IMG/VR virus record: IMGVR_UViG_3300030104_005071
Coordinates: 1-64,000 of that record
Reading direction: 5' to 3' (one strand)
DNA: 64,000 nt
Source: a virus
Every line of letters starts with the position of its first letter. The first letter of the stretch is position 1. Under the pieces are notes generated by a model. The model made no database searches, was not told the origin of the DNA, and was given only the letters and a program-made list of their open reading frames with translations. A program made the position numbers and the translations under genes. Shown piece by piece: positions 9,958 through 64,000 of the stretch.

Positions 9958-11013
9958 ATGACTATCAGTACTGAACTACTGAATACTACGTTCGCGGATC
10001 TTCGCGGACCTCTTGTAAACTCGTTTGTTCGTAGCAATGAGCTGTTCGAAGCACTTAACTCGAAAGCACGTATGCCAATGGAAGGCGGAACAAAGATTGA
10101 ACGTTCCTTTTCCGGTGGCGCTCCTGCTCGCGGTGTTGGTGTCTACGTCGGTGATGAGCTACTGAACATGACTCGTCGCCAACAAATTCGGAAGTTTGAG
10201 GTTGAGCCGCACCGTTTGGTTATGGCAATCAACATTCCCAAGCGTGAGCTTGCTCAAAACTCTGGTAAGTTGGCTATCATTCGTTTGATTGAGGAATATC
10301 CTCAGACATCAATGGAAGCTGCAAAGGCTGACCTTAACAAGTACCTTCTTACTGGTGCGAGTCGCGGTCTTGCTTTTAACACTTCTGAGCTTCAAGGCTT
10401 CTTGACTCTTAATGGTCAATTTGCTTCAGGTATCGGAACCGGTGTTCTTAACGGACTTCTGGATTTCGAAGCGCCTGGATCACAAGTTGATGTTGTTCAG
10501 GGTGTGAAGAAGAGTAGTAGCTACTTCCACTTCAACCAGTACAATGACATTGCGACTTGGACCAGTGAGGGTATGACGCAACTGCGTAAGACTTATCGTC
10601 AATGCTCTCACTACGCTGGCGGAATTGGTAAGGGTCCAGACATGATTTTCATGGATGATGACACCTACACCAACTTCGAAGACCAACGAAGTGAAAACGT
10701 TCGCGTAACACTTGTCGATGACAAGGTTGACAAGAGCAACACCCTTGGCCTTAGCCTGGGACTTGCTTCTGTTACATCTTCGATTGACTTGGATCGTTCA
10801 GACTTTACGGCTGCAACTGCTCCACGCGACGGTGTTACTTACATGCTCAACACGGATTATCTCGAATTCCCAATGCTTGAAGCTCCGAATGTCTCGGAAT
10901 TCAAGGAGCGGGTCGGTGATCAAGACGTGGTGACTGCAATCTTTGCCATGCAAGGTAACCTGATCTGCACCAAGTTAGTGGCGCAGGGATGTGTTACTGG
11001 CGGCGCGGCTTAA
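9958..11013 (+). CDS. Major capsid protein
   Basis: 351 residues. The sequence shows features of HK97-fold capsid proteins without a long pro-region: an N-terminal helix (TELLNTTFADLRGPLVNSFV), an extended-loop-like segment (GGTKIERSFSGGAPARGVGV), a helical P-domain-like spine (AAKADLNKYLLTGASRGLAF) and the beta-rich A domain with MIFMDDDTYTNFEDQ. The C-terminus reads VVTAIFAMQGNLICTKLVAQ, typical of these proteins. It opens the main rightward virion block and is followed by a decoration-like protein and a terminator, an arrangement that favours high expression of these two genes. Assignment rests on pattern and position. Confidence 0.85.
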   Translation: MTISTELLNTTFADLRGPLVNSFVRSNELFEALNSKARMPMEGGTKIERSFSGGAPARGVGVYVGDELLNMTRRQQIRKFEVEPHRLVMAINIPKRELAQNSGKLAIIRLIEEYPQTSMEAAKADLNKYLLTGASRGLAFNTSELQGFLTLNGQFASGIGTGVLNGLLDFEAPGSQVDVVQGVKKSSSYFHFNQYNDIATWTSEGMTQLRKTYRQCSHYAGGIGKGPDMIFMDDDTYTNFEDQRSENVRVTLVDDKVDKSNTLGLSLGLASVTSSIDLDRSDFTAATAPRDGVTYMLNTDYLEFPMLEAPNVSEFKERVGDQDVVTAIFAMQGNLICTKLVAQGCVTGGAA

Positions 11014-26207: not shown

Positions 26208-26228
26208 TTTTTGGAGTCGAATACTGTC

Positions 26229-29200
26229 GTGGCTGAAACTGACACACCTGTAGAACCTGATCTCTCTGAAGCAACCGAGAGTATGTTGTCTTTACCGGCA
26301 GAAGGTGAAGACACTGAAATCGAAGAAGACAACATTGATTTAAAGCCATACACGTTGGCAGAAACAATTCGGACGCAGCGTGATTTAGCTTTTGCCCCTG
26401 ACATACCTAAAGAGCTACAGGGCAAATTTTTATCTGTACCTGAAATCGTAGAAGCTCATAGTCAGCGGCTCGGTATATCTAAACAAAGACTGAAGAGAGC
26501 GGCGGCGAATCAAGGTCTTGATTTGAGTGTTTTAATTACTGGAATCGGTAGTCAAGGTCGCGACGTTAATGACGTATTCAAAGAGCTAAAAGATTTGGGT
26601 ACGGTTGCTTTTGACCCACCCGAAACTCGCACCGATAAGATGAAGGAGTTTCGTCGCGCACGAATGACGGATCAACGTCAAGTCGACATTAACAAAATTG
26701 CGAACGCAAAAATCGATGCAGGAAAGGTAAAGTTTAATTTTAGTCCTGAAGAGCTTGCGGTAACTCGACCTCAAAAGACCGTTGACTTTAAGAAGATTAA
26801 AGATCTATCTAAGCGTCAGGCCGCAGTCGCAGAAATTGTGTATGACATGGGATCTGATACCGGTATGAGTCGTGATCAGATGGCGGCAATCTTAGCGAAT
26901 GGAATTGCTGAAAGCCGACTTGATCCTTTTGCGGAGTCTCCTGGTAGTGAGGATTCGCACGGTATCTGGCAGTTTAATCGCGGAGGTTCAGGTGAAGGTG
27001 TCGGGTTTACTGTAGAGCAGCTTCAAGATCCTAAGTTTCAGATGGAAAAAATCATTGCGGCCACAAAGGATCGTGATGAGCTTAAAGGATTTAGAGACAC
27101 TAACGCTGATGCAAACGAGCTTACAAAGCAGTTTATGATCCATTTTGAGAAACCTCAAAATCAATCAGAGACTAAGATCAAGCAACGCCAGTCTTATGTG
27201 GCTCAAGCACAAAGATTGCTAGATGAAGCCGAAAAGAATTCTCCGAAAGCCCAGCACATGGCTAAGGTCACAAAGGAAAAGAGCAAGCAGCTTAAGAGAA
27301 TCGTTAACGAAGGTAGTCGGGTAAAGTTTCGGGTAGGCACTGATAGAGAGGCCCCCGGCGGTGACGTTGCAAACGAGGTTGTTAAGCCTGGTTCAAAAGT
27401 CTACAAAGAGGTTGAAGACGAAGTTGAAATTCTTATCAATCCTGACAAGGCTCGTGAGAAGGGTGGTGACCCGAAACGTGCGAGGTTGATGCAGAATCTT
27501 TTGGCTAAATATCGTAGCGGTGACACATCAGACCAACTTCATAATTTGTTTGAAGAGGGCGCTTTTTACGATCTGTATTCTTCAGCGGTAAACTATGACG
27601 TAGATCTCGCAGCAAGTAAATTGGGCATCGATCCGAATGAATTTATGCTTAAAGCGAAAGATGCTCGATCGAAAGAAGGTCAAATTTGGAGGGAGATTCT
27701 ACGCAGTAACCGTGACCAGGCAGCAAAGTTTCAGACACTAAATAAGCTTGGTGTACCGGCGTTTGTGTCCTATGAGTTTATGGACCCAGACAACTGGATG
27801 GGTGAGCGTCGAACAGATTCAGACGACCCGTACTTGTCTCGTTGGTGGGACGCAACTTCGGGTAACCGTGTTGAGCTTGTGGGTTTGGACAAAGACAAAA
27901 TTCCTGTGTTTCGGGCGCAGCATCATTTAGCTTCTTTTGCGGACAAACTTGATTTGGTTTTGAGCATGGGGGCGGGAGCACTTGAGCGATCATTACGTGG
28001 ACCGGAAGACGAATCTCTCGGGGAAGCAATAAAAGAAGGTTCAATTGAAGGCATCAAAAATGCACGGAACCTGACTAAGTTTATGCTCTCGACTGAGGCG
28101 GCAAGAAGTAACGGTATTTCAGCGTTGGCTTTGGGTATGGTTGGTTTTGGTGGGGATATTCTTACACCTGACCCCACAATTGGTCTTGCAATGGTTGCGT
28201 CTTCGACTCGGAAAGCGGCTAAAAAAATTGCTCCGTTACTGAACAAAAGACACATTCCGAAAGCTTTAGATGACATGGACACCGTTGCGACGGAGATGAT
28301 CGAGTCTCAAAAGTTAATCGTACGGGCCAAAGAAGAATTTGCCGCAGGTAATATTGAGGCGGGTCAGAATCTTTTAGATCAAGCCAAAGAAGCTGCTCTT
28401 AAAGCTGAACGTGCTGAGCGTAATATTAAAAGCAAGCTTCCAAAACTTATGGAAGAAGTAGATCGTACTGACGGTGGTCTTGCTCGTGAGATTGCGAGAG
28501 ATACCCCAATTATTAAGGGTGGCAAAGAGTCTGATCAAGCTGCGAAAGAAATAGGGTTCTCTGACTTCGGTGTACGTAGAGATTTCGTTCATCCATCCTA
28601 TAATCGAATCGAGGCTCGCGGCGGCGGTGATTCCCAGATTGTCAGACGTTCTGAATTCTTTGATGTCAGCACAAAAATTGACAATCTTAAGGATCTTGCG
28701 ACACGGATAGAGGCAGGTGATGTGGGTAAAGCCTACACACCAGAAGTGCTTTCCGAGGCTCTTACACCGCTACAAAATACTTTTGCGACTATTCTTGCGG
28801 GTAGGGGTTTTTCAAAAGCCAAGAGCGCCAAGACACAATCACCTGAAGTTACGGACTCATTAATTAGTTTCTTCGACTTTTTAGGTAGCACTCGAACGGC
28901 TGAAATGATGGTTGAGGAACCTGAAAAGTTTCGGGCGACGGCTATGGATATGTTCAACCGAATTCCAACGCTGCCACGCAAAACCGAAATCTTTGGTGAT
29001 CTCGAAGGTGACATTACAAAGGCTCTCGACAAAGCAGCAAAAATTGCAGCGCGTTCAGACAAGGCTACCGAAGCTGCTGATTTATCGAAGACGCTAGTCG
29101 ATGTTACGGATGGTGTTGCCGGAATTGCAGAGTCTCGTGGCGCATCTCACGCCCTTGTTCGTGGCGCTATTGCCGGGGAACAAGGTGTCAAGATCAAACC

Positions 29201-32200
29201 TTCTATCCCTGACGTTGCAAGCCGCTACGACGAAATCGGCAACGACAAGATCTCCTTCACAGCCCTGGACTTCCGCAACGAGCTTGAGACTGCATTCCCC
29301 GCCCTCCGAGGCGACTCCGCAATGCACATTGCCCGCTACCTCGATGCTCGCTTAAAAGCCATCCACCGCGAAACAAACGAACCCGTTGAAATTATCTTCG
29401 AGACCCGCGAATTCAAAGACATCATCCCTAACCTCAAACGTAAGCAGTTGGCAGAAACCGGTGAAGAAGCTGCTGATGTACAGTTTTCGAAAGTGCTTGA
29501 TAGTGAAGGTCGAGACTACGGGTTTGAAAACATAACCACAAAAGAAATTCGAGATCTTATTGATGACTCTACGGATCTAGGTGCTGGTTTAGGCTTTAAG
29601 GTTGAAGATGGTGTCCTTTCAATTCGTGAAGTTGCCTTACCTGAAAATCTTCAGGGTAAAGGTATTGCGACAAAACTATACAAAGCTGCATTGCGCCGAG
29701 CAAAAGAAGCAGGCTTAAGTTTTACGAGTGATCAGAATCCAACCCCTGAAGTAGCTAAGATCTATGAACGTTTGATGGAAGAAGGCATACCTATTGAGGT
29801 AAAGACTGTTCGTGAGAGCGGTCGATTCGTTACCCGGTATACAATCTCAAGCGACAAACTGTCAAAAGTATCCGACGACTTACTTGAGTTTGTTGACGAA
29901 GCTAAGCAATTAGAAAATTACAAAAATCTTTGGTTACCTGATTTTGTCGAGGACGGACAAAAAACTGTTCGTGCCATGGAAGAGGCAACTAACGTCGAAG
30001 ACTTTATGCTCGAGATTAATCGGATATCTCGACATGAGCTTAACCAAGATCAGATGAGCGCCGTCACTAAGTGGTTATCTTCGAAGGGTATTAAAGTTGG
30101 GTTTCGCGGCTCACGTTTTGTTGCCGATGATCCTGCTGCGATACAGCAAGCAGAGGAAACTTTTGCTCGGGCGTTCGCTGAATATGTTGATGGTCAACCA
30201 CCACCAACAGAAAAGATCGAATCTGCTTTTGAGCGCGTGAAAGGTGCGTTGGTAGATCGATTTGCGTCAGCTAAGAATGCATCTGTTGACGGTGCTAAGT
30301 TTAATCCATCTGCTGAGATTGAAAAAGTTTTTGGTGACATGCTTGCAAATCAGCCTGCAAATTCTAAAAACGCACCAAAGATTTTTAGTATCATTAAGCG
30401 TGCTTTGATTGATGACTTACCGACAAACACGACACAAGAGTTTTTGGTTAGCATTGCAAAAGAGACAGACCGTATGGGTAATCCCATATCGGTAAAAGAA
30501 TTAAAGCAACGAATGGTACAGCTAGTTGAGCAATATAAAAAAGCTGACCCGTTAGACAGAAAAGATATTCGAATCGAGCTTCCTGCACCTGTGTCTCTTG
30601 GCGGCTTATTGTCTCCCACAGGACCAAAACAATCGTTTACTCTGGAAGAATTTAGTCGGGGAGCACTAAACTACGCTCAACGTAAACGGTTAATCGATAA
30701 TCCTGGGACGCGAAAGATTGCGTTAGAGAGTGATGTCTCTCCAATTAGAGAGCTTCAACCCACACAAATTATCGATCAGTATTTAAGTCAGTCTAACGTT
30801 GTAAAGAGGTTTATTGGCCGTACTTATTTAGGGTTTGACGCTCTCGAGGACATGCGGGATTTACCCCCAAAAGTCCGAGAAGCTATTATGGCCGGTACTC
30901 GTATGACACAGCAATCTATCGGTGATGCTGTTTCGCTGGTCTCTGATGGCGATTATTCTATGCTGCTACGGTACTTGACTGGTGATCCTACAGTTAAGCT
31001 GAGAACCGGTCGACAAGTATTCAGCGCGGGCCATGACTCTGTTTCTGATGGTTTCGAATCTTTCCGATCATACATTGAGAGTTTTGCTCTCGAAGACGCC
31101 ATGGGCTACAATCGTTTGGTTGAATATTTTGAGACGGGTAAAATTGGAAAGAAATCAGCAACCCAGTTTCCAGATGAAGTAGCGAAAGCAGCGAAGACAC
31201 TTATTCTTAATTCAAAAGGAAACAGGCTACTTAAAGATATATTTGGCTCACTTAAACCTGGTCATGTGATTGAAAGTGATTCAAACACGATTCGCCCTGA
31301 GCATTTAGAGATCATCGAGAACCTTTTTTACCACACGGGTAAAAGTCGACGGAAAAATGCTCAAGATGTTTTGACCCTATTCAGAGGTAGTTCGCGGCAG
31401 CAATTTGATTCGCTCTATAAAATGCTCGATGAAATGTATCCGATGAAGACGGCGAAGGATCATCCTGTGGCTAATCGTGTAGCTGTTTTATTCTCGGCTC
31501 ATGGTGCCGCGATGAAAGCTCGTAAGGAATGGGTTGATTTGGGTATTGCTGTTGACGCCAAAACAGCGGCTGATTTTAAGAAGTGGATTATTGGTGAGGG
31601 TTTAGACACGGACGCGGAAGCCGCGAAAGTAAAGCAAGCGTTTCAAGTTTTTGGTTACAACCCCAGGTTTATGGAAGCTCTGGAGTTAGACGGCTTTGGT
31701 GACGTTTGGGTTCCCGCAGCAGCCCGCAGAAAATTAGCTTTGGCTTTAGAGCAAGCAACTGATCCAACGATAAAATTAGATTTCGGTATGTTGGAGACAA
31801 TTGGTCAAGGTTTACGGGAGGCGAATATGAGTGCTGCTGCTGCGGCGTTTACTTTCCGTTACCTCAAGACGAAGATGGTTCGCGGTCATTTCTTGTTGAA
31901 GTCTCGGTATTTCTGGATGAACACAATGGATCACTTCAATCAGATGAGCCAGATTGTTGGTTTTAGACCTGCATTTATCTCATCTGTGAGATTAGTTCCT
32001 CAGTCGCTTGTGACAAACCCTTGGGTTCAGACAGCGTTGGTAGGTATTCAGAAAGCAGGCAAGGACGATGTAGGTGAGGTGATGCGGGGTGCGTTGTCTG
32101 CTGCTGGTGATGAAGGCGCTCGGTGGGCTTCAGCGTTGATGCGGGCATCTAAGTGGAACGGTTCTCTTGATGCGATGATGGAAGGTAGGGATGGTTTCGT

Positions 32201-33983
32201 GCTCGCAGGCGGTGTTCCTTATGCCTACAAGGATCTAAAGCGTATTGGCGTTGAAGAAGGTTTGGCTGCTTCGTTCCAGACAACGGAGTTGGGTACAAAG
32301 ATTCGACGAGTGGGCCAAATGTTTTTGAACAATTATGAGAAAAAAACAGGTCTGCGTCAATTGCTCGGGTACGCAGGCGCGGACATACCTCGCTGGTTCG
32401 CAAAGATGGCTGAAGATCTCGCTGAAGGTTGGAGTGAGCGCGAGCGTTTTGGTGCAATGCTTACGTTAGTCGAGATGGGTGTTGAGCCTCGGAAGGCTGC
32501 ACGCTTAGCAATTGACGCCCTATACGACTACGCAGGGTCGATGTCGAAGTTTGATCGGAATATGTTGGTTCAAATCTTCTTCCCGTTTTGGGCGTTCCAG
32601 AAAAACGCAAACCGTCAACTTGTTGATGTGTTGTTCAGTCCTCGAGGCGCGTACCGTTTGGGTGTCTTGCGTCGGTCGTACGAAAGACAGGGTGAGTTTT
32701 TCTCCGAGATGATGTACGAAGGCATGGTTGATCCGTTGGGCATCAACGTTGACATGATGGATGACAATGAGCTTGAAGCGTATGACGCTTTGAAAACTTC
32801 GTTAGAAGATTACTATGGTGTTCCGATTGCTCAGTTACCGGAAAATCTAAGGCGTTCGATTCGTATGGCTGTCACGGGTAGGTCTAGCGTATACGAGAAT
32901 GGCAAGCTTTATAAGATGGACGACGAGGCAAGGCGTGTTCAAGAATTGTCTTACGCTGACCCGAAAACGGGAAAAGTCATACCGCGATTCTACAAAGGAA
33001 GATATCCACGTTCGTTTGTTGAAAAGCCTTCACCCGCGACAATGCCTAAGTGGACAGGATCTCGTGATGCAGGGCTAATTCCCTACGCCGTAAATGAGCA
33101 GAACAAAATTTGGAACGACTTAATGAATGCGACCGATGGAACTAGTCGGACGTACACCGCAGTTATGTTTCCTGAGCAGAGCTACAAAGCTGCGGGTAAT
33201 TTCTTTATGTACCTAACAGCTACGTATTTTCATCTGGGTCGAGAGATTGCCACGAAAGTCGGACCCGAATATTTTATGGACCCAATTGATGAGGGTAGCG
33301 AGACTTACTCATGGTCGTACCCAATGATGGAGCTTTTGCGGCCTGAGAGTGCGCTTTTTGTTTCTGACGCAGCGGGGGCTACAGGACTCGATAAGAATCC
33401 GATGCCTTATCAATTAGCCCCAACCGCAGCTAACTTTTTGCGTCGGTTGGATTGGGAAATTTTACCCGTAGACGCAAAAGAAGATCCATTTAAGATGCGG
33501 TTAAGTCACAGTGAGTTTAAGCGTCGGATGGCTGCTGGCGACATTGAAGCAATTCCTGAAGACCCGTACCTCAATGGTGAGACTTTACTACCTCAAAATA
33601 ACTACTACCTACCAGGCGGTGTAGCAGCCTTTACAATGCAGCAATTGGTTCCAGGATTTGATCAAGTAAATACTATTCTTAAACAAATGGAAATGTCGCA
33701 GCCAGAAGAGCTTTCAGGTCTTCGTGGAGAGCTTCAAAGAGTCCTCCGAGTTTATGGTGTATTAGATACTCGAGATTTCTCACCGGAGAAAGTCGCTCGG
33801 AGTGGTGGTTATCAGAAGCTAGACGAAACTCGTGACCAGCAATTGTTAGAGATTAAAAAGAAACAAAACTTAAAGTATTTGAACCTTGATGATTTTGCGC
33901 GGCAGGAAGATGCTCGGGCGAAAGAAACTTTAGAGCGTTTGAAAAAACAAGATCCAGGTGACATGGAGATCGACCTGGAGTAA
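26229..33983 (+). CDS. Giant internal virion protein with lytic transglycosylase-like and GNAT-like domains
   Basis: 2584 residues from GTG; a TTG six codons upstream is an alternative, but GGAG at 26213 favours GTG even though spaced 12 nt. About residues 195-330 form a lysozyme-like fold with ANGIAESRLDPFA (likely catalytic E228) and DSHGIWQFN, typical of virion transglycosylases that open the cell wall during DNA entry (T7 gp16 carries one at its N-terminus). About 1120-1190 match a GNAT acetyltransferase core (REVALPENLQGKGIATKLYK, with the Q-G-K-G-I-A acetyl-CoA loop near 1142). Near 2095-2125, ALYDYAGSMSKFDRN then FPFWAFQKN is a motif I associate with giant phage ejection proteins. Part of the gene (29.2-29.44 kb) has different codon use. 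Confidence 0.8.
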   Translation: MAETDTPVEPDLSEATESMLSLPAEGEDTEIEEDNIDLKPYTLAETIRTQRDLAFAPDIPKELQGKFLSVPEIVEAHSQRLGISKQRLKRAAANQGLDLSVLITGIGSQGRDVNDVFKELKDLGTVAFDPPETRTDKMKEFRRARMTDQRQVDINKIANAKIDAGKVKFNFSPEELAVTRPQKTVDFKKIKDLSKRQAAVAEIVYDMGSDTGMSRDQMAAILANGIAESRLDPFAESPGSEDSHGIWQFNRGGSGEGVGFTVEQLQDPKFQMEKIIAATKDRDELKGFRDTNADANELTKQFMIHFEKPQNQSETKIKQRQSYVAQAQRLLDEAEKNSPKAQHMAKVTKEKSKQLKRIVNEGSRVKFRVGTDREAPGGDVANEVVKPGSKVYKEVEDEVEILINPDKAREKGGDPKRARLMQNLLAKYRSGDTSDQLHNLFEEGAFYDLYSSAVNYDVDLAASKLGIDPNEFMLKAKDARSKEGQIWREILRSNRDQAAKFQTLNKLGVPAFVSYEFMDPDNWMGERRTDSDDPYLSRWWDATSGNRVELVGLDKDKIPVFRAQHHLASFADKLDLVLSMGAGALERSLRGPEDESLGEAIKEGSIEGIKNARNLTKFMLSTEAARSNGISALALGMVGFGGDILTPDPTIGLAMVASSTRKAAKKIAPLLNKRHIPKALDDMDTVATEMIESQKLIVRAKEEFAAGNIEAGQNLLDQAKEAALKAERAERNIKSKLPKLMEEVDRTDGGLAREIARDTPIIKGGKESDQAAKEIGFSDFGVRRDFVHPSYNRIEARGGGDSQIVRRSEFFDVSTKIDNLKDLATRIEAGDVGKAYTPEVLSEALTPLQNTFATILAGRGFSKAKSAKTQSPEVTDSLISFFDFLGSTRTAEMMVEEPEKFRATAMDMFNRIPTLPRKTEIFGDLEGDITKALDKAAKIAARSDKATEAADLSKTLVDVTDGVAGIAESRGASHALVRGAIAGEQGVKIKPSIPDVASRYDEIGNDKISFTALDFRNELETAFPALRGDSAMHIARYLDARLKAIHRETNEPVEIIFETREFKDIIPNLKRKQLAETGEEAADVQFSKVLDSEGRDYGFENITTKEIRDLIDDSTDLGAGLGFKVEDGVLSIREVALPENLQGKGIATKLYKAALRRAKEAGLSFTSDQNPTPEVAKIYERLMEEGIPIEVKTVRESGRFVTRYTISSDKLSKVSDDLLEFVDEAKQLENYKNLWLPDFVEDGQKTVRAMEEATNVEDFMLEINRISRHELNQDQMSAVTKWLSSKGIKVGFRGSRFVADDPAAIQQAEETFARAFAEYVDGQPPPTEKIESAFERVKGALVDRFASAKNASVDGAKFNPSAEIEKVFGDMLANQPANSKNAPKIFSIIKRALIDDLPTNTTQEFLVSIAKETDRMGNPISVKELKQRMVQLVEQYKKADPLDRKDIRIELPAPVSLGGLLSPTGPKQSFTLEEFSRGALNYAQRKRLIDNPGTRKIALESDVSPIRELQPTQIIDQYLSQSNVVKRFIGRTYLGFDALEDMRDLPPKVREAIMAGTRMTQQSIGDAVSLVSDGDYSMLLRYLTGDPTVKLRTGRQVFSAGHDSVSDGFESFRSYIESFALEDAMGYNRLVEYFETGKIGKKSATQFPDEVAKAAKTLILNSKGNRLLKDIFGSLKPGHVIESDSNTIRPEHLEIIENLFYHTGKSRRKNAQDVLTLFRGSSRQQFDSLYKMLDEMYPMKTAKDHPVANRVAVLFSAHGAAMKARKEWVDLGIAVDAKTAADFKKWIIGEGLDTDAEAAKVKQAFQVFGYNPRFMEALELDGFGDVWVPAAARRKLALALEQATDPTIKLDFGMLETIGQGLREANMSAAAAAFTFRYLKTKMVRGHFLLKSRYFWMNTMDHFNQMSQIVGFRPAFISSVRLVPQSLVTNPWVQTALVGIQKAGKDDVGEVMRGALSAAGDEGARWASALMRASKWNGSLDAMMEGRDGFVLAGGVPYAYKDLKRIGVEEGLAASFQTTELGTKIRRVGQMFLNNYEKKTGLRQLLGYAGADIPRWFAKMAEDLAEGWSERERFGAMLTLVEMGVEPRKAARLAIDALYDYAGSMSKFDRNMLVQIFFPFWAFQKNANRQLVDVLFSPRGAYRLGVLRRSYERQGEFFSEMMYEGMVDPLGINVDMMDDNELEAYDALKTSLEDYYGVPIAQLPENLRRSIRMAVTGRSSVYENGKLYKMDDEARRVQELSYADPKTGKVIPRFYKGRYPRSFVEKPSPATMPKWTGSRDAGLIPYAVNEQNKIWNDLMNATDGTSRTYTAVMFPEQSYKAAGNFFMYLTATYFHLGREIATKVGPEYFMDPIDEGSETYSWSYPMMELLRPESALFVSDAAGATGLDKNPMPYQLAPTAANFLRRLDWEILPVDAKEDPFKMRLSHSEFKRRMAAGDIEAIPEDPYLNGETLLPQNNYYLPGGVAAFTMQQLVPGFDQVNTILKQMEMSQPEELSGLRGELQRVLRVYGVLDTRDFSPEKVARSGGYQKLDETRDQQLLEIKKKQNLKYLNLDDFARQEDARAKETLERLKKQDPGDMEIDLE

Positions 33984-39468: not shown

Positions 39469-39849
39469 ATGGCAGTAACTAAAACAACTACGATTACATC
39501 TCTTGGAGGTAACCTCGTTGTTGACTTTACTGCGGACGCCACGTCTGAGAACAACGTTACGGGCAATACTTCAGGTTCTTTCTACCTAATTGAGATCGAT
39601 AACACAGCAAACTCGAATAGTTTAGCATACGTAAAAATACGGGATGCGGCATCGGCCACGCCGAATAATGCGAGCACAGGCATTCCTACGTGGCAGTTTG
39701 TTGCCCCTAAAGCGAGCAAAATTACGTACACTTTTCCTGAAGGTCAGGATTATGTCGCAGGTTTAAGTATGTGGTGCACTACAAATCCCGCACACCAAAA
39801 CACAAGCTCGCCAGGTAGTGCTGTAGTAGTAAAAATTATCTCGTCGTAG
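39469..39849 (+). CDS. Small beta protein, paralogue 4 of 4
   Basis: 126 residues. Contains FYLIEIDNTANSNSLAYVKI, RDAASATPNNAS, WQFVAPKASKITYTFPEGQD and GLSMWCTTNPA, the clearest form of the shared pattern. In other phages I recall this type as short proteins in the tail or fibre region. It abuts the lysis block. Confidence 0.7.
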   Translation: MAVTKTTTITSLGGNLVVDFTADATSENNVTGNTSGSFYLIEIDNTANSNSLAYVKIRDAASATPNNASTGIPTWQFVAPKASKITYTFPEGQDYVAGLSMWCTTNPAHQNTSSPGSAVVVKIISS

Positions 39850-39857
39850 GAAACAGG

Positions 39858-40253
39858 ATGGCTAAAATGGACCCCGTAACACTTACCGTAATCGCAGTTG
39901 TCGCATCTCTTGGTATGGGCTTCGGTGCTGGTTGGGGCCTTAAGCCCGACGCAGGCACAAAGGCTATTGAGGCGCAAACAGAGGCTATTAAGGAATTGAA
40001 CAGCGGTAACCAGGCGCTCGTCGACAAGGTGCAAGAAGTTGCCGTAGAAGAAGCAAAAAGAGAGACCGTAATCGCGGATAAACTTACGGATATGCCACCC
40101 CCCTGCGTCAAAGAAGTCGGCGGAGATCCTATGTCATTGCAATGTATGTGGGCTCTATGTATTAGAACGGGTGAAACAGATAAGCAACGATGTGAGCCGT
40201 CTAAGTTGACGGATAAGCTACTCGGGTCTTATAGTTATTCTGAGTCGCATTAA
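39858..40253 (+). CDS. Membrane-anchored coiled-coil protein, inner-spanin candidate
   Basis: 131 residues. One N-terminal membrane segment (VTLTVIAVVASLGMGFGAGW, about 7-26) is followed by a coiled coil (AIEAQTEAIKELNSGNQALV to about 75) and a Cys-rich C-terminal part with four cysteines. An N-terminal anchor plus periplasmic helix is the layout of Rz-type inner spanins that fuse the membranes at lysis. A lipoprotein partner nested within it is not seen. Function inferred. Confidence 0.5.
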   Translation: MAKMDPVTLTVIAVVASLGMGFGAGWGLKPDAGTKAIEAQTEAIKELNSGNQALVDKVQEVAVEEAKRETVIADKLTDMPPPCVKEVGGDPMSLQCMWALCIRTGETDKQRCEPSKLTDKLLGSYSYSESH

Positions 40254-47735: not shown

Positions 47736-50537
47736 GTGTCCCAAAGACCCGAGCAGGAAGGCATGTCGGGGGTCGAGATAGATGCCTTACTTTCTATGAA
47801 TAAGAATCCAAAACAATGTGGTGCCCGTTGCGATGAGTGTCCTCTCGGACCCAACGGCGCACTACAGAAAGATGAATGGCGTCCCGTCACTGGAGAGTTT
47901 CATCCAGGAGCAAAGATACTTGCACTGGGTGAAGCTCCACGCGCCGAAGATGTAAACAACGGTCGACCCATAATGGGTAGTGCTGCATCTGAGTGGGCCA
48001 GGTTTTTGAGTGCCGCAGGTATGAATCGATCGCACGTAGACTTGGATAACGTCATTGCCTGCAAGCCCCCTGGTAAGGAGGGTGGCGCGTGGAATCGAAT
48101 GGAGAAGTCGCTCGATCGCCTCAACAAGAAGCGTGTGGCGCAGGGGAAAGATCCATTACCCCATCCGGCTGAGTGCTGTAAGCCTCGCTTGGAATCTGTA
48201 CTAAACAAGTACGACAACTTCATTGCCTTCGGTAAGACTGCAACACGGGCCTTATCGAATCAATCGTCGAGCATACACGCCATGCGTGGTGGTCCAATGT
48301 ACATCGACGACAACTGGGTGTGGTCTTCTGAACCGACAACTAAGAAGATGTTGGCTACGTTCTCACCTCACTACGTAACGAGAGCCCCTAATTGGAGGCC
48401 CGTTATTGAGGCCGACATATCCAAAGCTAAGAGATGGTTCGACAACACACTGCGATGGATTGAACCTGAGTCACAGATGAACCCAACGCCTGAAGAGCTT
48501 GAGGCTTTTCTGGCACAGCCCGCACCATTCTGGGCTTACGACGTTGAGACTGACGGCATCGAACCCCTTGAGTGCAACCTACGCACCATTGCAATTGCCA
48601 TCCCCGATCTGGACGCCGAGGGCAAAGCTGCACGCTCCAACCCTATACACGTTTCAAAAGCTATCGGAGTTGGTCTACTCTCCACCGATGGCGTTACTCG
48701 CATCTACCCACCAGAAGACGAACGTCGCATTCGTGACATACTCTGCACCGCATTCACAGACGGTCGCGTTTGGGTGGGCCACAACGCAGGCTACTACGAT
48801 CGTATGGTGGTTGAGACGCAGTTTGGAGTCACACCAGAACCGCTTGTAGACACGCTCTTTCATGCCAGGTTTAGGTCACCTGACCTACCCAAAGGACTGA
48901 AGACGATTGGATCGGTGCTTACAGATGTCGAACGTTGGGAGACAACAGAAAAGGGTACGAAGATATCTACTGGTAGTCAAGATGACACAGAGCTTCTGAA
49001 GTACAACATCATCGATACAGTAGTGAACGCTCGAATTACGGTGCCGTTGATTGACGCAGCAGTGGAGGTCGGTGCTTTCAATGAATTGAATCGTGGGCTT
49101 AGGCCAAGTCACTGGCCTATTGAGAGGCCGTGGAATCTAAACGAAATAGACCACGCAACTCAAGAGATGTGCGTGGGTATGCACAAAGCAGGTATTTGGA
49201 TCGACCAGGAGCTACGTAGTTCACTTGAGTGTGAGTACGAGATATCTGTGAAGCGTAGACGTAAAGAGCTACAGAAACATGTAGACGCGGGTTTCAATCC
49301 TGGGAGCGTGGATCAGATTCGCAAGCTTCTTTACGATGATTGGAATCTGGGGATTCCGGCGTCGATGAGTGCCAATGAGTTTTATACCGAGACAGGTGCT
49401 CCAGGTACAGGTGACGCAGTAATACGCGGGCACCTTGCATCGGGTCAAATGAGTGAGCGCCAAGAAACATTTTTGAAGCAACTCCGGTTGTATCGTAGAG
49501 AGAAGAATAAGATTTTAGGTACTGTGTTGGTTCCGTTGAGACGTAGAAGTCAAGACTCAGATAAAGGATTGGTTCCTGAGGATGGTCGCGTAAGGTCCAC
49601 TTGGAATGCTCACGTTACCAGTGTCGGAAGACTATCAAGCTCTGGTCCTAATCTCCAGAACATCGGCAATCGAAAGGGTCAGGGAAGATTAAAGTCTATC
49701 TTTGCTGCCCCTCCAGGACGCATACTGGTGGGTGCTGACTTAGATCAAGCACACCTACGAATCACTGCTTGTTACTGGCAGATACCTCGACTGCTCGAAT
49801 GTTTTGACACGGGTAAAGATCCTCACAATCTACTGGCTTACGACATATTTGGTAACGATTTTAAGAATGCGAGTGGTTGGGGGCCAGATGGTTTTAGTCT
49901 AGATCGTAAGCCTACAGGTGGTGAAGCCAAAGCTATGCGTGATGTCATGAAGACATTTCGATACGCGTCAATTTATTGGGCTGACCCGATGACTGTATGG
50001 CAAGTGTTGACAAGCACAGAGACCGATGACGGTCGAATGCCATACCTAAAGTTTGAGCCAAGAGAGGTCAGACATTTTCACAATAAGTGGCTGAAAGCTG
50101 AGCCTGAATGGATGGACGCTTGGAACGATATGCGAGGCTTGTATAGTCGTCAGAAGTTTATGGAAGAGCCGATATTTAATCGACGCTCAGGCCCATTGTC
50201 TGACGGTAAGAAGAATGAAGTGGTTAACTTTCCGATTCTTGCGGCTGAATCTTCAATCATGAGACTCGCAGAACAAGCTGTGATCGGTGAGTTTCCGTTT
50301 GATTTTGCAGGTCGAGGTACTGGTATGATCCATCAATGCCACGACTCGATTGCAGTAGAGATACCCTTACCAGAAAACTTATCACCAGATTGGAAACCCG
50401 TTAAGGGAGAGCCATTACCCCCAGAGTTGGAAGTCGCGAGACGCACTGTTGAAGAGTGTATGACCGTGACTATCCCTGGCTGGGATGTTAGGATGACCGC
50501 AGAGGCTGAAGTCGGACGCAGCCTTAAAGACATATAG
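47736..50537 (+). CDS. Family A DNA polymerase fused to family 4-type uracil-DNA glycosylase
   Basis: 933 residues, GTG start. Residues about 20-240 are a UDG-like domain: Cys 32, 35, 109 and 148 match the four Fe-S ligands of family 4 UDGs (CDECPLG, NVIACKPPG, ECCKP), with GEAPRAED at 65-72 and RGG/SPH near 184-212. Then a 3'-5' exonuclease with D269/E271 (YDVETDG), N350/D355 (GHNAGYYD) and Y423/D427. The polymerase has motif A D668-L-D-Q, motif B R735 to Y744 and motif C H869-D870. A UDG-like N-terminus on a phage Pol A is known from SPO1. Motif A has DLDQAHLR rather than DYSQIELR. Confidence 0.9.
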   Translation: MSQRPEQEGMSGVEIDALLSMNKNPKQCGARCDECPLGPNGALQKDEWRPVTGEFHPGAKILALGEAPRAEDVNNGRPIMGSAASEWARFLSAAGMNRSHVDLDNVIACKPPGKEGGAWNRMEKSLDRLNKKRVAQGKDPLPHPAECCKPRLESVLNKYDNFIAFGKTATRALSNQSSSIHAMRGGPMYIDDNWVWSSEPTTKKMLATFSPHYVTRAPNWRPVIEADISKAKRWFDNTLRWIEPESQMNPTPEELEAFLAQPAPFWAYDVETDGIEPLECNLRTIAIAIPDLDAEGKAARSNPIHVSKAIGVGLLSTDGVTRIYPPEDERRIRDILCTAFTDGRVWVGHNAGYYDRMVVETQFGVTPEPLVDTLFHARFRSPDLPKGLKTIGSVLTDVERWETTEKGTKISTGSQDDTELLKYNIIDTVVNARITVPLIDAAVEVGAFNELNRGLRPSHWPIERPWNLNEIDHATQEMCVGMHKAGIWIDQELRSSLECEYEISVKRRRKELQKHVDAGFNPGSVDQIRKLLYDDWNLGIPASMSANEFYTETGAPGTGDAVIRGHLASGQMSERQETFLKQLRLYRREKNKILGTVLVPLRRRSQDSDKGLVPEDGRVRSTWNAHVTSVGRLSSSGPNLQNIGNRKGQGRLKSIFAAPPGRILVGADLDQAHLRITACYWQIPRLLECFDTGKDPHNLLAYDIFGNDFKNASGWGPDGFSLDRKPTGGEAKAMRDVMKTFRYASIYWADPMTVWQVLTSTETDDGRMPYLKFEPREVRHFHNKWLKAEPEWMDAWNDMRGLYSRQKFMEEPIFNRRSGPLSDGKKNEVVNFPILAAESSIMRLAEQAVIGEFPFDFAGRGTGMIHQCHDSIAVEIPLPENLSPDWKPVKGEPLPPELEVARRTVEECMTVTIPGWDVRMTAEAEVGRSLKDI

Positions 50538-51033: not shown

Positions 51034-53043
51034 ATGTCTACGCGACCATACGTCGAGCACGTCTACAGTAATCTGAAGTCGCCTCGAACCAACGGAGATG
51101 CATGGGGCATCGACCTTGGACCCAAAACCCTACTTGTGGGGTCGAACACAAGCCACAAAAGCAGCGTGGTACAATCTATTGAGCTTGCAATTGCAGGATC
51201 TGCCGATGATGTAATCGGTCGTAGTATAGTATCCGATGCAGCTTTACTTTTAACACTTGCACCAGGAGATGAGCTTGGGGTTACGGCACGACTTAGTGAT
51301 GGCTCTACGGCAAACTACAACGCACGTAGGGAAGAAGGTAAAGTCAAGCGCCCTCAACATGATGGTCCAGGCTCGGATAGTTTGGTCCACCGCTCAGTTG
51401 CAGCGGCGTTGTCAGGATCAGCAACAACAGCACGTAAAGCCTTCCTGGAATGGTCAGGTGACAACGTTACCCGTGACGATGTCTTACTCAGTCTACCAGA
51501 AGAGTTACATAATAAATACGCAGACATCGCAAAGCATCGAGGTAAGAACCTGAACGAGACAAAGACTCTCATTGAGGTTTTGAATTACGCAAACTCCAGA
51601 TCGCGTGAGTTATCAAAAGAGGTCAAGGGTGCGGAGCTTATTCTTGAAAGCATCGGTGACTCGCTTGAGGCAAAACCTTCGGACGGTGATCTCGATAAGA
51701 TGCGGTTCGCTGTAGCTGAAGCAAAAGAGATCTTAGATGTTTCGATTGCTCAATCAAACGGTGGGCTCACTCTTGAAGCTAAGCAAAAGAAAGTAGTCGA
51801 GCTTACAGAGAAACGGGATGCCTGGATTGATTACAAAGCACAGGCAGAGCTTTCAATCAGAGATCTAAAGTCTCAACTACCGCACAAGGGTGAGAACGTT
51901 GACGGTGCTATTGCGATTGTTGATGTCGCTGTAAAGCATGAGCTAGACGTTTGCCCCGTCTGTAGTTCAAGTGTCGGCTTGGCTCACCTGAAAAATTGCC
52001 AAAGCTTCTACCAAGAACAAAGCAATACATGGGAAACGCAATCTCAGAAGTTGCTTGAGTCAATCAAAGCTGCGGAAGAAAGATCCGCAGGTTGTGACAA
52101 CAACATTGTTGCCCTTGACCATGAGCTTCGAGAGATTGAAGACACGGCGCTAACTAAAGTAGACTCTCGCGCATTACCTGTTTCCGAAGCACAGTATCGT
52201 TTGGAAGCTGCAATGAGTGCTCTGGGTAAGATGGAAACTGTGAACGATCGCTGGTCTGATTTGACTGGTGCTCAAGAACGGATTCAATCTTTCCGAGTCG
52301 ATCAGGAAAACTATCGGTCACTTCGAATTGCTTGTGAGCGTTCAATTGGATTCTTGCTCTCAGAACAAGCACGTACGTTTAGTCAGTTGGTTCAACGCTT
52401 CTTACCCGATGCATGGAAATTCAAGATTGAATTGGTAGACGGTGAACGCGAAGTATTCCGTATGGGCTTTGAGCGTAACGGTAGGCTGCACTGTGCTTTG
52501 TCAGGTGCCGAATGGGCAACGGTTATCACGGCTGTCAGTATGGCTGTGACGTCTCAAATGAATAAGGACAAGCCAGCCATTCTCATTCCGTACGATAGAG
52601 CCTGGGACACACGAACGCTATCCGCTGTGATGCGTGGGTTCCTTAGCTTTGACGGGCAAGTTGTTATCGCCAGTACGGTAAGACCTATGGGTCGACCGCC
52701 AAAGGGTTGGACGATCATCGATATGGATGAGGTCAGCAAAACTTGGGTGGAAGGTGAGAAGAAACCCGAAGAGCCTGAGCCGAAGAAGAAGCGTGTGAAG
52801 AAAACTCCTGAGCGTAGAAAAGTACGCAACGAAGGTGGACTAAGTGTCATTAGTCGAAGCGCACGTAAACTTCAGGAGATGGGCTACGCAATCTCTGATG
52901 TGCTCACGATGAGCAAGGAAACGGCGCAACATCTAATCAGCAACAACATCCAGCCTGAGCTTGTTGAAATCCAATCTGATGGTGGATTCAAGATAATCAA
53001 AGCTGAAAATGTGTTGCCGATCTCGTTGCCACCGAGTCCGTAG
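51034..53043 (+). CDS. SMC/Rad50-like ATPase with zinc hook
   Basis: 669 residues. N-terminal Walker A-like GSNTSHKSS (36-44), two coiled-coil arms around a CPVC zinc hook (307-310), a signature-like ALSGAEW near 487 and a Walker B-like PAILIPYDRAWD near 514-524 that lacks the usual D-E pair. After the head comes a 100-residue Lys-rich tail with its own small domain (VISRSARKLQEMGYAISDVL, a short helix-turn-helix-like unit). The size is far below cellular Rad50. It probably binds DNA ends with a nuclease; the nearest is the RecB-like enzyme. Strong AGGAGG site. Confidence 0.75.
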   Translation: MSTRPYVEHVYSNLKSPRTNGDAWGIDLGPKTLLVGSNTSHKSSVVQSIELAIAGSADDVIGRSIVSDAALLLTLAPGDELGVTARLSDGSTANYNARREEGKVKRPQHDGPGSDSLVHRSVAAALSGSATTARKAFLEWSGDNVTRDDVLLSLPEELHNKYADIAKHRGKNLNETKTLIEVLNYANSRSRELSKEVKGAELILESIGDSLEAKPSDGDLDKMRFAVAEAKEILDVSIAQSNGGLTLEAKQKKVVELTEKRDAWIDYKAQAELSIRDLKSQLPHKGENVDGAIAIVDVAVKHELDVCPVCSSSVGLAHLKNCQSFYQEQSNTWETQSQKLLESIKAAEERSAGCDNNIVALDHELREIEDTALTKVDSRALPVSEAQYRLEAAMSALGKMETVNDRWSDLTGAQERIQSFRVDQENYRSLRIACERSIGFLLSEQARTFSQLVQRFLPDAWKFKIELVDGEREVFRMGFERNGRLHCALSGAEWATVITAVSMAVTSQMNKDKPAILIPYDRAWDTRTLSAVMRGFLSFDGQVVIASTVRPMGRPPKGWTIIDMDEVSKTWVEGEKKPEEPEPKKKRVKKTPERRKVRNEGGLSVISRSARKLQEMGYAISDVLTMSKETAQHLISNNIQPELVEIQSDGGFKIIKAENVLPISLPPSP

Positions 53044-53589: not shown

Positions 53590-53684
53590 CTTGTTGGGTT
53601 GGTGGGTTGCGCCAGTTAAATTCATCTCGTTCTGAGGTGAATTGTTTTTGTTTGGAATTGATGTTGTTTATGTAGGTGGTTCAC

Positions 53685-55814
53685 ATGGAAGCAGATGGCA
53701 CGGTGGGGATGGAGAGCCCCGAAGGCCAAAGCAGAAACCCTGAAAGTGGTTCTGTTGTTGATCGGGCAGTTGAAATAATTCGTGGTTTAGTTGAGCGTTT
53801 AAACAATGGTGGTCGACCAGAACATCGAGCCGCCTGGGATTCAATGCATGATCCCGAAACCATCAACACCTTAGCTGAAGCCTGGTTACAGGATGAGGGT
53901 CGGCTGATCACAAGTATCGCCCTCATTGAAATGGTTCCGAGACAGGTTCAACGCGCAAGACAATTTAGGCGCACGATACAAACTCTTGCGAATGAAGTCC
54001 AAAGACGCAGGTCTGATCAGATCCTTGCGGATCTCGAAGAACAGTTGGGCGAACTACCCACGCTTGAGACCATGCTGGACGGTGGCGCTCCACCACCAGA
54101 GGTTGTCACTCGTCAGGTGCTATCAACGCTTCGGGCTCCACGAGGTTTCGAAGTTGACTTCAACGGCGTTTACCGATTGACCGCACAAGTTGACGGCACT
54201 ATCTCACGCACACGTATCGCCCTGGCTCCAATCTTCATCGCAGGGCGAACCATTGATGTTGTTAGCGGTGAAGCTAAACGTCTACTTGTTTGGCGTGGCG
54301 CAAGTGGTTGGCGATCACGGGTGGTCAACCGAAGAACCATTGTTGATGCCTCAAAGATTATTGCGTTGTCGAATCTAGATGCTCCCGTAAGCACGAACAA
54401 TACACTGCACATGGTGTCATACCTGGCAGAGTTTGATGCTGAGAACGCGCATAGGTTTCCGGTGGTTCAATCAGCTTCGTCGATGGGTTGGCAACCTAAT
54501 GGTGGATTCCTATTACCTGACATGTATTACTCAACAGATCAAAACGTGGGGCAAGACTTTGCACTGACGCCACCTTCAGGTCTTGAGACGTTGTCTGGTG
54601 GGTGGAAACCCAAAGGTACTTGGGGTGAATGGATAAGTGCGATGCAGTTGGTCGAAGACTTTCCATACATGTTTATTGCTGTGTATGCGAGTGCCGCTGC
54701 ACCATTACTGGAGGTGCTTCACATTCCAGGTTTTGTACTAGACTTTAGCGGTGAGACCAGTGGCGGAAAGACAACGGCATTGAGATTTGCAGCTTCAGTT
54801 TGGGGTCGCCCTGCTGAGTCGTATCCTACTGCTATGTATTCGTGGGACGCAACTAAGGTATGGATTGAGCGTACCAGTGGGTTTCTAAAGAACCTTCCAT
54901 TGGTCCTGGACGAAACTAAGCGAGCACGACACCCGCGAATTGTACGCGATGTGATCTATGACTTTTGCCAAGGCCAGGGTCGCGGTCGAGGTTCAGTCGA
55001 AGGAACCCGGCACACTGAGTCTTGGCGTTCTGTTTTGATTAGTAGCGGTGAGGGTGCGGCAACGTCGTTCTCTCAGGATGCAGGGACACGCGCCCGAGTC
55101 TTGTCGTTAAAGGGTAAGCCGTTGGGAGACGACGTTGTTGTGGGTTCGGCTGCTAGTGAGGAAGCACAGGCGCTGTTGGCTAAGAGCTATGGACATCTGG
55201 GGCGACACGTTGTGCAGTACCTGGTGGCGAACCGAGAGCGTTATTCGGATATTCGTGCGGTGTTTCAGGCGTCGAGGCAGAAGTATTCAGAGCTTGCTCA
55301 GAGTGCTGTGTCGCGTAGACATGCAGGTCACTTGGCTGTGCTCGAAGTGGCGGCGAGTATTGTACACAGTCTTGGTGTGCCGACACCTACAGTTGATCCG
55401 TTCACATGTTTGCTGGAGTCACAGGAGCAGGCGGGGCACGATGCAGACAGACCGTTATCTGCACTGCAAGATTTCCTGACTTGGTGTGCGACACACCAGA
55501 AAAGGTTTTGGGGTCGAGGCGAAAAGGATCGAGAAGGCAACACAAAAGCACCACCGCAAGGTTGGGTTGGCGCTTGGGAAGACAAGAACGATTGGGATTC
55601 TATCGCAGTGACAACCACTGGATTCAACGCATTGATGAAAGACTTAGGCCACGACCCCGACGAGATCATTACTCGCTGGAAGGACCGTGGCTGGTTGAGG
55701 TTGGGTGGAGGGAGTAAGCGCCCCAGGAGCAGAGTGATCCGCGTCGATGGGGCACCTACTCGATGCTATTGTATTGATCGGAACGCAGCCGATATGGCTA
55801 TTGAATCCGAGTGA
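53685..55814 (+). CDS. DUF927-type helicase/ATPase
   Basis: 709 residues from ATG with AGGTGG upstream; a GTG three codons earlier is possible. Residues about 160-330 match the DUF927 region (IDVVSGEAKRLLVWRGASGW, SSMGWQPNGGFLLPDM), then an AAA-like ATPase core with Walker A SGETSGGKTT (355-364) and Walker B LPLVLDETKRA (D409/E410), and SWRSVLISSGEG as sensor. Such proteins serve as replicative helicases of phages and mobile elements (for example the Cch group of SCCmec). N-terminal 150 residues could be a primase-like or dimer domain but no primase motif is seen. Last rightward gene of the block. Confidence 0.85.
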   Translation: MEADGTVGMESPEGQSRNPESGSVVDRAVEIIRGLVERLNNGGRPEHRAAWDSMHDPETINTLAEAWLQDEGRLITSIALIEMVPRQVQRARQFRRTIQTLANEVQRRRSDQILADLEEQLGELPTLETMLDGGAPPPEVVTRQVLSTLRAPRGFEVDFNGVYRLTAQVDGTISRTRIALAPIFIAGRTIDVVSGEAKRLLVWRGASGWRSRVVNRRTIVDASKIIALSNLDAPVSTNNTLHMVSYLAEFDAENAHRFPVVQSASSMGWQPNGGFLLPDMYYSTDQNVGQDFALTPPSGLETLSGGWKPKGTWGEWISAMQLVEDFPYMFIAVYASAAAPLLEVLHIPGFVLDFSGETSGGKTTALRFAASVWGRPAESYPTAMYSWDATKVWIERTSGFLKNLPLVLDETKRARHPRIVRDVIYDFCQGQGRGRGSVEGTRHTESWRSVLISSGEGAATSFSQDAGTRARVLSLKGKPLGDDVVVGSAASEEAQALLAKSYGHLGRHVVQYLVANRERYSDIRAVFQASRQKYSELAQSAVSRRHAGHLAVLEVAASIVHSLGVPTPTVDPFTCLLESQEQAGHDADRPLSALQDFLTWCATHQKRFWGRGEKDREGNTKAPPQGWVGAWEDKNDWDSIAVTTTGFNALMKDLGHDPDEIITRWKDRGWLRLGGGSKRPRSRVIRVDGAPTRCYCIDRNAADMAIESE

Positions 55815-63347: not shown

Positions 63348-63698
63348 GTAACGTTACGACCTGGTGTTACGCGAGAACGCAGGTTGTACCGTGTGTATAG
63401 AGTTTAGAGTTGGTTAGCGTAACACTCTGTAACGCTTGGTGTGTTACGCTATATGGTAGGTTGAACCAACTGAATGACCAGGTGTAACACTGTAACACCG
63501 ATTTGGTGGATAGCATATACATATAGGATTGTGATGTGTGTCAATGGGTAATTGAATTACTCACTTAACAACTTTACTCACGCGCTACGTATATGTAGTA
63601 GAAAAAGAGTGTTACAGTGTTACACTTTAATATAGTATAGATAGAACCTATGATATGCCGTAACACTGGGAGTGTTACACTGTGTTACAGAGTGTTAC
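63348..63698. repeat. Array of GTGTTAC heptamers in both orientations (iteron-like)
   Basis: Eleven exact copies of GTGTTAC or its complement GTAACAC start at 63364, 63419, 63441, 63484, 63492, 63609, 63617, 63660, 63672, 63682 and 63692, plus variants GTAACGTTAC at 63348 and GTAACGC at 63429. The last three are spaced exactly 10 bp, one helical turn; two pairs are 8 bp apart. An A+T-rich stretch (63575-63655) lies within. Located in the 470-bp gap between the leftward block and the TerS-like gene. Candidate packaging site or replication origin. Confidence 0.85.
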
Positions 63699-63736: not shown

Positions 63737-64000
63737 ATGGAAGACGATGTTGAGTTGCCCCGTGTGCCCGTTCCTGCTGCCGAAGGGTTGCAGGTGATAC
63801 CGCGTACTGTGGTTCCAGCCGGTGAGGCTGAAGTGGTTGCTATGCTTGCTGAACAAGCACGGTTCGATGGTAACGATCGGATGCGTGATGTAGCTAAACA
63901 GCTTTTAGGAGCTGGGTATACAGTAGCTACTGCTGCAAGACGTTTAGGAATCCGCCCAACAACTGTGTGGGGCTGGTCAAAAGAACCTGACTTTGTAGAG
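63737..64000 (+). CDS. Terminase small subunit-like protein (N-terminal part, runs off window)
   Basis: 88 residues visible; no stop before the edge. An in-frame stop just upstream makes this ATG the only early start; the ribosome site is weak (GTGGGTAT). Residues about 49-85 form a helix-turn-helix (DVAKQLLGAGYTVATAARRL, GIRPTTVWGWSKEPDF) of the type that begins many phage small terminases, which bind the packaging site. The repeat array directly upstream is a natural target. A transcription regulator is an alternative. Confidence 0.6.
   Translation, partial: MEDDVELPRVPVPAAEGLQVIPRTVVPAGEAEVVAMLAEQARFDGNDRMRDVAKQLLGAGYTVATAARRLGIRPTTVWGWSKEPDFVE

Follow-up and report, generated by a model that had tools for sequence, protein, structure and literature searches.

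A mirror-symmetric GTTAC array in a phage genome as a probable replication origin of the SaPI/PICI kind

In the window, that is, the whole stretch of 64,000 nucleotides analysed here, an array of GTGTTAC sites next to a TerS-like gene is very probably (about 0.88 by our estimate, from sequence comparisons) the theta-type replication origin of the phage, of the kind found in SaPIs and PICIs, and would be bound by the phage's own DUF927 initiator. Until now this layout had been described from small phage-parasite islands alone; here it was encountered in many full-size phages.

The window comprises bases 1 to 64000 of a record of 65,342 bp, which is classed as linear in IMG/VR; a search of the record for a terminal overlap or terminal repeat found none. 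A P22/SU10-like portal and the terminase large subunit are encoded on the minus strand, and the family A DNA polymerase, specified at 47736-50537, carries a fused UDG-like domain. A single ORF of 2590 codons with a TTG start occupies 26211-33983 in the late-gene region. No match was obtained when the nucleotide sequence was searched against annotated phages, nor when the TerS-like protein was searched among them.

In the 64-kb window, GTGTTAC was counted 17 times, compared to a mean of 7.4 in shuffled sequences, none of which (0/100) reached 17. Eleven exact copies in both orientations are located within 63364-63698, as the initial annotation had counted for about 350 bp, while the highest count per 335 bp in 100 Markov-1 genomes was three; the enrichment proposed there as a check is present. 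For the GTTAC core, the window mean is 0.77 per 350 bp and the array contains 13. The next densest stretch has five; it lies at 10705-10997, where the major head protein gene ends, and includes three GTGTTAC copies in 293 bp. The spacings noted before also agree with the positions: three sites follow each other in 10-bp steps (63672, 63682, 63692) and two pairs in 8-bp steps (63484/63492 and 63609/63617). The A+T-rich segment described inside the array corresponds to 63499-63608, 110 bp with a GC content of 35% versus 47% for the window, which places it in the lowest 1.6% of all 110-bp windows. The features are listed below.

53676-55814, plus strand: DUF927 primase/helicase with C-terminal HTH_56 domain, candidate initiator (profile and PDB matches)
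63348-63357, no strand: GTAACGTTAC, two GTTAC cores placed back to back, at the left edge (seen in the sequence)
63364-63370, plus strand: GTGTTAC site, outermost on the left, not part of the dyad
63419-63425, minus strand: GTGTTAC site, mirrors 63682-63688
63429-63433, minus strand: degenerate site with GTAAC core, mirrors the core of 63672-63678
63441-63447, plus strand: inverted single site, mirrors 63660-63666
63484-63498, minus strand: inner left pair GTAACACTGTAACAC, 8-bp spacing, near-invariant in 10 relatives
63499-63608, no strand: A+T-rich centre, 65% A+T, proposed melting and helicase-loading region
63548-63560: small inverted repeat GTAATTGAATTAC, no more than half a base off the dyad centre
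63609-63623, plus strand: inner right pair GTGTTACAGTGTTAC, 8-bp spacing
63660-63666, minus strand: inverted single site; its start is 43 bp past that of the inner pair's outer site
63672-63698, plus strand: outer right tandem, three sites 10 bp apart (63672, 63682, 63692)
63737-64000, continuing to 64276 of the record, plus strand: TerS-like HTH gene (179 aa), neighbour of the array, judged to be outside the element

The dyad symmetry of the array went unnoticed in the initial annotation. Four inverted GTGTTAC pairs (63419 minus/63682 plus, 63441 plus/63660 minus, 63484 minus/63617 plus, 63492 minus/63609 plus) are all centred on 63553.5, and a fifth, degenerate pair (GTAAC at 63429, GTTAC at 63674) shares this centre, giving five pairs for the GTTAC core. 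Four pairs on one centre are expected with a probability of about 2e-5 when 11 oriented sites are placed freely at random, and of 8e-5 when the tandem blocks are kept intact (8 of 100,000 trials). Outward from the centre, each half-unit has an inner pair at 8-bp spacing and, 43 bp further, a single inverted site, followed by outer sites about one helical turn apart, at 12, 22, and 32 bp past the inverted site. In an alignment of ten arrays from the window family, sites and spacing are kept, whereas the outer flanks vary, as does a large part of the centre. A stable hairpin was not found at the dyad centre of the window (z -0.15), whereas in three relatives, L067, L062, and L066, a central hairpin is clear (z -6.0, -2.6, and -3.3). 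There, the centre of the dyad contains a strong inverted repeat, such as AATGGGTTTAG...CTAAACCCATT (L067 5932-6041; L062 9328-9437; L066 4191-4299). A central hairpin as a required element was therefore rejected.

The candidate initiator is related to pathogenicity-island and Cch helicases of solved structure. Its HTH_56 domain carries the label 'Cch helix turn helix', and sequence matches were obtained to PDB entry 8tch, 'Pathogenicity island protein' (E 2e-31), which we take to be SaPIbov1 Rep, and to 5dgk, 'Active helicase' (E 2e-16), presumably Cch. By these protein matches, Rep of the SaPIbov1 type and the SCC helicase Cch are of the same DUF927 kind as the window protein. SaPI origins are situated directly downstream of rep, whereas the array of the window is 7.8 kb away from the DUF927 gene. 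In SaPIs, it is through its C-terminal domain that Rep binds the iterons (PMC7581432). An AlphaFold model of the window protein had a mean pLDDT of 51, too poor to judge the DNA-binding domain.

The link between initiator and array was examined independently of the repeated word in eight phage records picked solely by DUF927 protein similarity, with the window protein and that of L126 as queries. In seven of the eight, a dense GTTAC array is present just after the DUF927 gene, with 6, 9, 6, 12, 10, 7, and 8 copies within 350-400 bp past the stop codon, compared to at most 1-3 per 350 bp elsewhere in the fetched DNA. Since L204 and L210 are near-identical, six of these seven phages are independent. 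In most of them an A+T-rich segment is surrounded by pairs with a spacing of about 8-9 bp, and an inverted site follows about 41-43 bp outward. Cultured phages are among them, THSA-485A of Thermoanaerobacterium, Jekyll of Roseburia, phiRg507T2 of Ruminococcus, and AC844P1 of Anaerostipes, for which no published origin annotation was found. Like the window, they have GTTAC arrays around an A+T-rich centre, in most cases with inner pairs about 8-9 bp apart, but their arrays follow the DUF927 gene directly and the bases beside the GTTAC core are different. In the eighth phage, Faecalibacterium phage FP_Epona (L207 3840-4180), a similar array after the DUF927 primase/helicase gene is built from the word GTTTCACC/GGTGAAAC, which suggests that the word of the array may change with the initiator.

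Origins of PICIs are located immediately 3' of the initiator gene and invariably consist of two sets of iterons on either side of an A+T-rich region, an organisation reported as common to no other known replicon; a rep-ori segment of EcCICFT073 supports plasmid maintenance (Fillol-Salom et al., PMC6092414). For comparison, the EcCICFT073 rep gene and the downstream gap were taken from E. coli CFT073. The gap contains 11 copies of GGTAGA, and five inverted pairs are centred on 4123.5, which was not reached in any of 100,000 random placements. Its half-unit consists of a pair 9 bp apart, an inverted site 46 bp on, and further sites at 22, 33, and 42 bp; several GTTAC arrays have nearly equal half-units, for example L155 (8; 43; 23, 34, 42) and L161 (8; 41; 23, 34, 43). 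EcCICFT073 and the window share a short word repeated many times in two sets around a centre, an exact dyad, similar half-unit spacing, and an initiator of the primase-helicase type. They differ in the word, in the initiator, which is D5-type in EcCICFT073 and DUF927 in the window, and in the polarity of the half-units about the centre, which is opposite in the phage arrays. Moreover, the EcCICFT073 origin is directly 3' of rep, whereas in the window, a full-size phage, the array lies beside terS at a distance of 7.8 kb from the initiator gene.

Iteron origins of phage lambda and of plasmids also have initiator repeats next to an A+T-rich unwinding region. These are direct repeats on one side, in contrast to the two mirrored sets of the window, and a loader is needed for DnaB, whereas the window phage encodes its own helicase.

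Judged by the features of PICI and SaPI origins, the array has the mirror symmetry and half-unit spacing of the tested PICI origin, with reversed half-unit polarity, and the phage encodes a helicase of the Rep/Cch/D5 kind with a predicted C-terminal DNA-binding domain (DUF927 plus HTH_56). An origin immediately 3' of the initiator gene is seen in most other array loci and in the seven DUF927 phages; in the window it is not. Because the candidate origin is not beside its initiator gene, it would represent a variant of the PICI/SaPI type and not a plain member. In this respect the window array is unusual among its kind, the initiator gene adjoining the array in other families. Within the window family, the DUF927 plus HTH_56 protein is encoded by the window and five further array-bearing members, at distances of 7.8 kb (window), about 3 kb (G022), and 5.4 kb (G034) from the array. 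No GTTAC was found near 55.8 kb, after the DUF927 gene of the window.

IMG/VR was scanned for the inner core, defined as two inverted pairs separated by 90-120 bp. The scan revealed 31 loci with the same wider geometry in several unrelated phage families; by our own estimate, about 0.01 chance matches are expected. A looser scan of genome contigs gave 114 hits. Many of these are palindromes of Prevotella/Bacteroidaceae, several per genome and partly located between ordinary chromosomal genes, which probably represent a different repeat and were set aside. The remaining loci include Cyanobium, Vulcanococcus, Nodosilinea, Leucobacter, Bifidobacterium, and Clostridia. In most cases examined, the large genes near arrays specify initiator-type proteins: DUF927 with or without HTH_56, VapE, D5_N/PriCT_2/DUF5906 with Prim-Pol, zinc-ribbon primase-helicases, DUF5906 with Toprim, or PriCT_1. 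With HMMs built from initiators neighbouring arrays, an initiator-like ORF was detected within the fetched DNA of 48 loci including the window. Outside the window family, the 3' end of the initiator gene faces the array in 37 of the 45 loci with an initiator, with about 50-160 bp between the stop codon and the inner pair; six loci, the D5 group, have the array upstream of the initiator gene instead. The outer sites of 26 array loci, taken together, show a phasing of about 11 bp (0/2000 simulations). The non-DUF927 families were retrieved by the GTTAC pattern, and their use of GTTAC is therefore selected; the DUF927 phages are the only set unselected for the word.

Some hits from these searches have features of their own. 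The intergenic palindromic GGTTACATGGTTAC elements of Prevotella/Bacteroidales have fixed sites at about +/-48, 56, 65, and 71 bp, occur up to five times per genome, often between ordinary chromosomal genes, and in some cases adjoin the gene for a conserved, functionally unassigned protein of about 490 aa (L084, L087, L091, L097, L102, L104, L106, L110, L113, L114, L119, L121, L122, L124, L135-L137, L141, L144, L148, L150, L152, L156-L158, L160, and L162). They may constitute a family of chromosomal repeats to which a related protein binds. In two Leucobacter species, the array core is present (L138 5616-5748; L139 1556-1686), in L138 about 320 bp from a gene that by eye is ComM/YifB-like, and no initiator was recognised within the fetched DNA of either locus.

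The initial annotation had preferred a packaging site (pac/cos) to an iteron replication origin, and the gene next to the array on the right indeed resembles small terminases (PHROG 2538, E 4e-7). A packaging initiation site of the pac/cosB type, bound by the adjacent TerS-like protein, would account for the position of the array directly before this gene in three family members (window, L064, and L078); a diverged array also directly adjoins terS in a more distant relative (L025, 63% identity), and in several other families terS is within a few kb. Among 23 loci found with the TerS-like protein, however, six contain the same array with nearly equal spacing 2.4-3.5 kb from terS, and in G002 the array (39727-39866) and terS (near 51336-51869) are separated by about 11.5 kb. 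The array is therefore independent of terS. Linkage to terS is broken in most relatives, the TerS proteins of array-bearing phages belong to unrelated families (PHROGs 2538, 51, 57, and 309), it is the initiator gene that consistently adjoins the array outside the window family, and arrays are present at loci chosen by DUF927 alone. Across the family the array follows its own geometry and not terS, and the packaging reading, rejected on this linkage, is highly improbable. Very unlikely, too, is an operator array through which a repressor or activator controls divergent transcription of the leftward block of small genes and of terS to the right. The array of the window does lie between a leftward gene and the rightward terS, with the last tandem sites just upstream of the latter, but in L008 and L009 it is flanked by genes of the same orientation, so that it is not a divergent-promoter region in general, and this reading was rejected. 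It also leaves the exact dyad, the A+T-rich centre of 90-110 bp, and the position after initiator genes unexplained. Local effects on transcription could coexist with an origin function.

Least credible, to the point of being almost negligible, is a partition (centromere) site for a ParB-like protein. One weak array (L074 11445-11583), which adjoins terS and terL, is near ORFs that by eye resemble ParA, ParB, and an antirepressor, with no initiator seen nearby. This locus has just six GTTAC cores, however, ParA or ParB were not recognised among the part of the window proteins that was scanned, and other families have initiators instead of Par genes beside the array. The replication origin, named as the alternative in the initial annotation, is strongly supported by the dyad, the neighbouring initiators, the DUF927 phages, and the match to PICI origins. 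The statement that no phage site with GTGTTAC had been described fits the searchable literature, which does not include the SaPI origin papers, but the architecture itself is already known from PICIs (PMC6092414).

By analogy with SaPI/PICI-type initiators, the C-terminal HTH_56 domain of the DUF927 primase-helicase would bind the sites on each side of the centre, with GTTAC as the inferred target. Two helicase assemblies may then form, facing each other across the A+T-rich centre, and melt it, upon which bidirectional replication could start with the family A DNA polymerase.

It is an even question whether a single origin code, consisting of GTTAC half-sites, exact dyad symmetry, and phasing at about 11 bp, is common to different families of initiator helicases (DUF927, VapE, D5/DUF5906, and zinc-ribbon/Toprim) in phages of many bacterial phyla, so that phages and satellites would use one origin architecture with partly interchangeable words. 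The same layout in full-size phages of many hosts, where the GTTAC core is shared and the mirror geometry strict, would provide a simple rule for locating the origins of uncultured phages. It would also offer a protein-DNA pair open to testing, GTTAC and the C-terminal domain of the DUF927 protein, and connect the replication of phages with that of their satellites.
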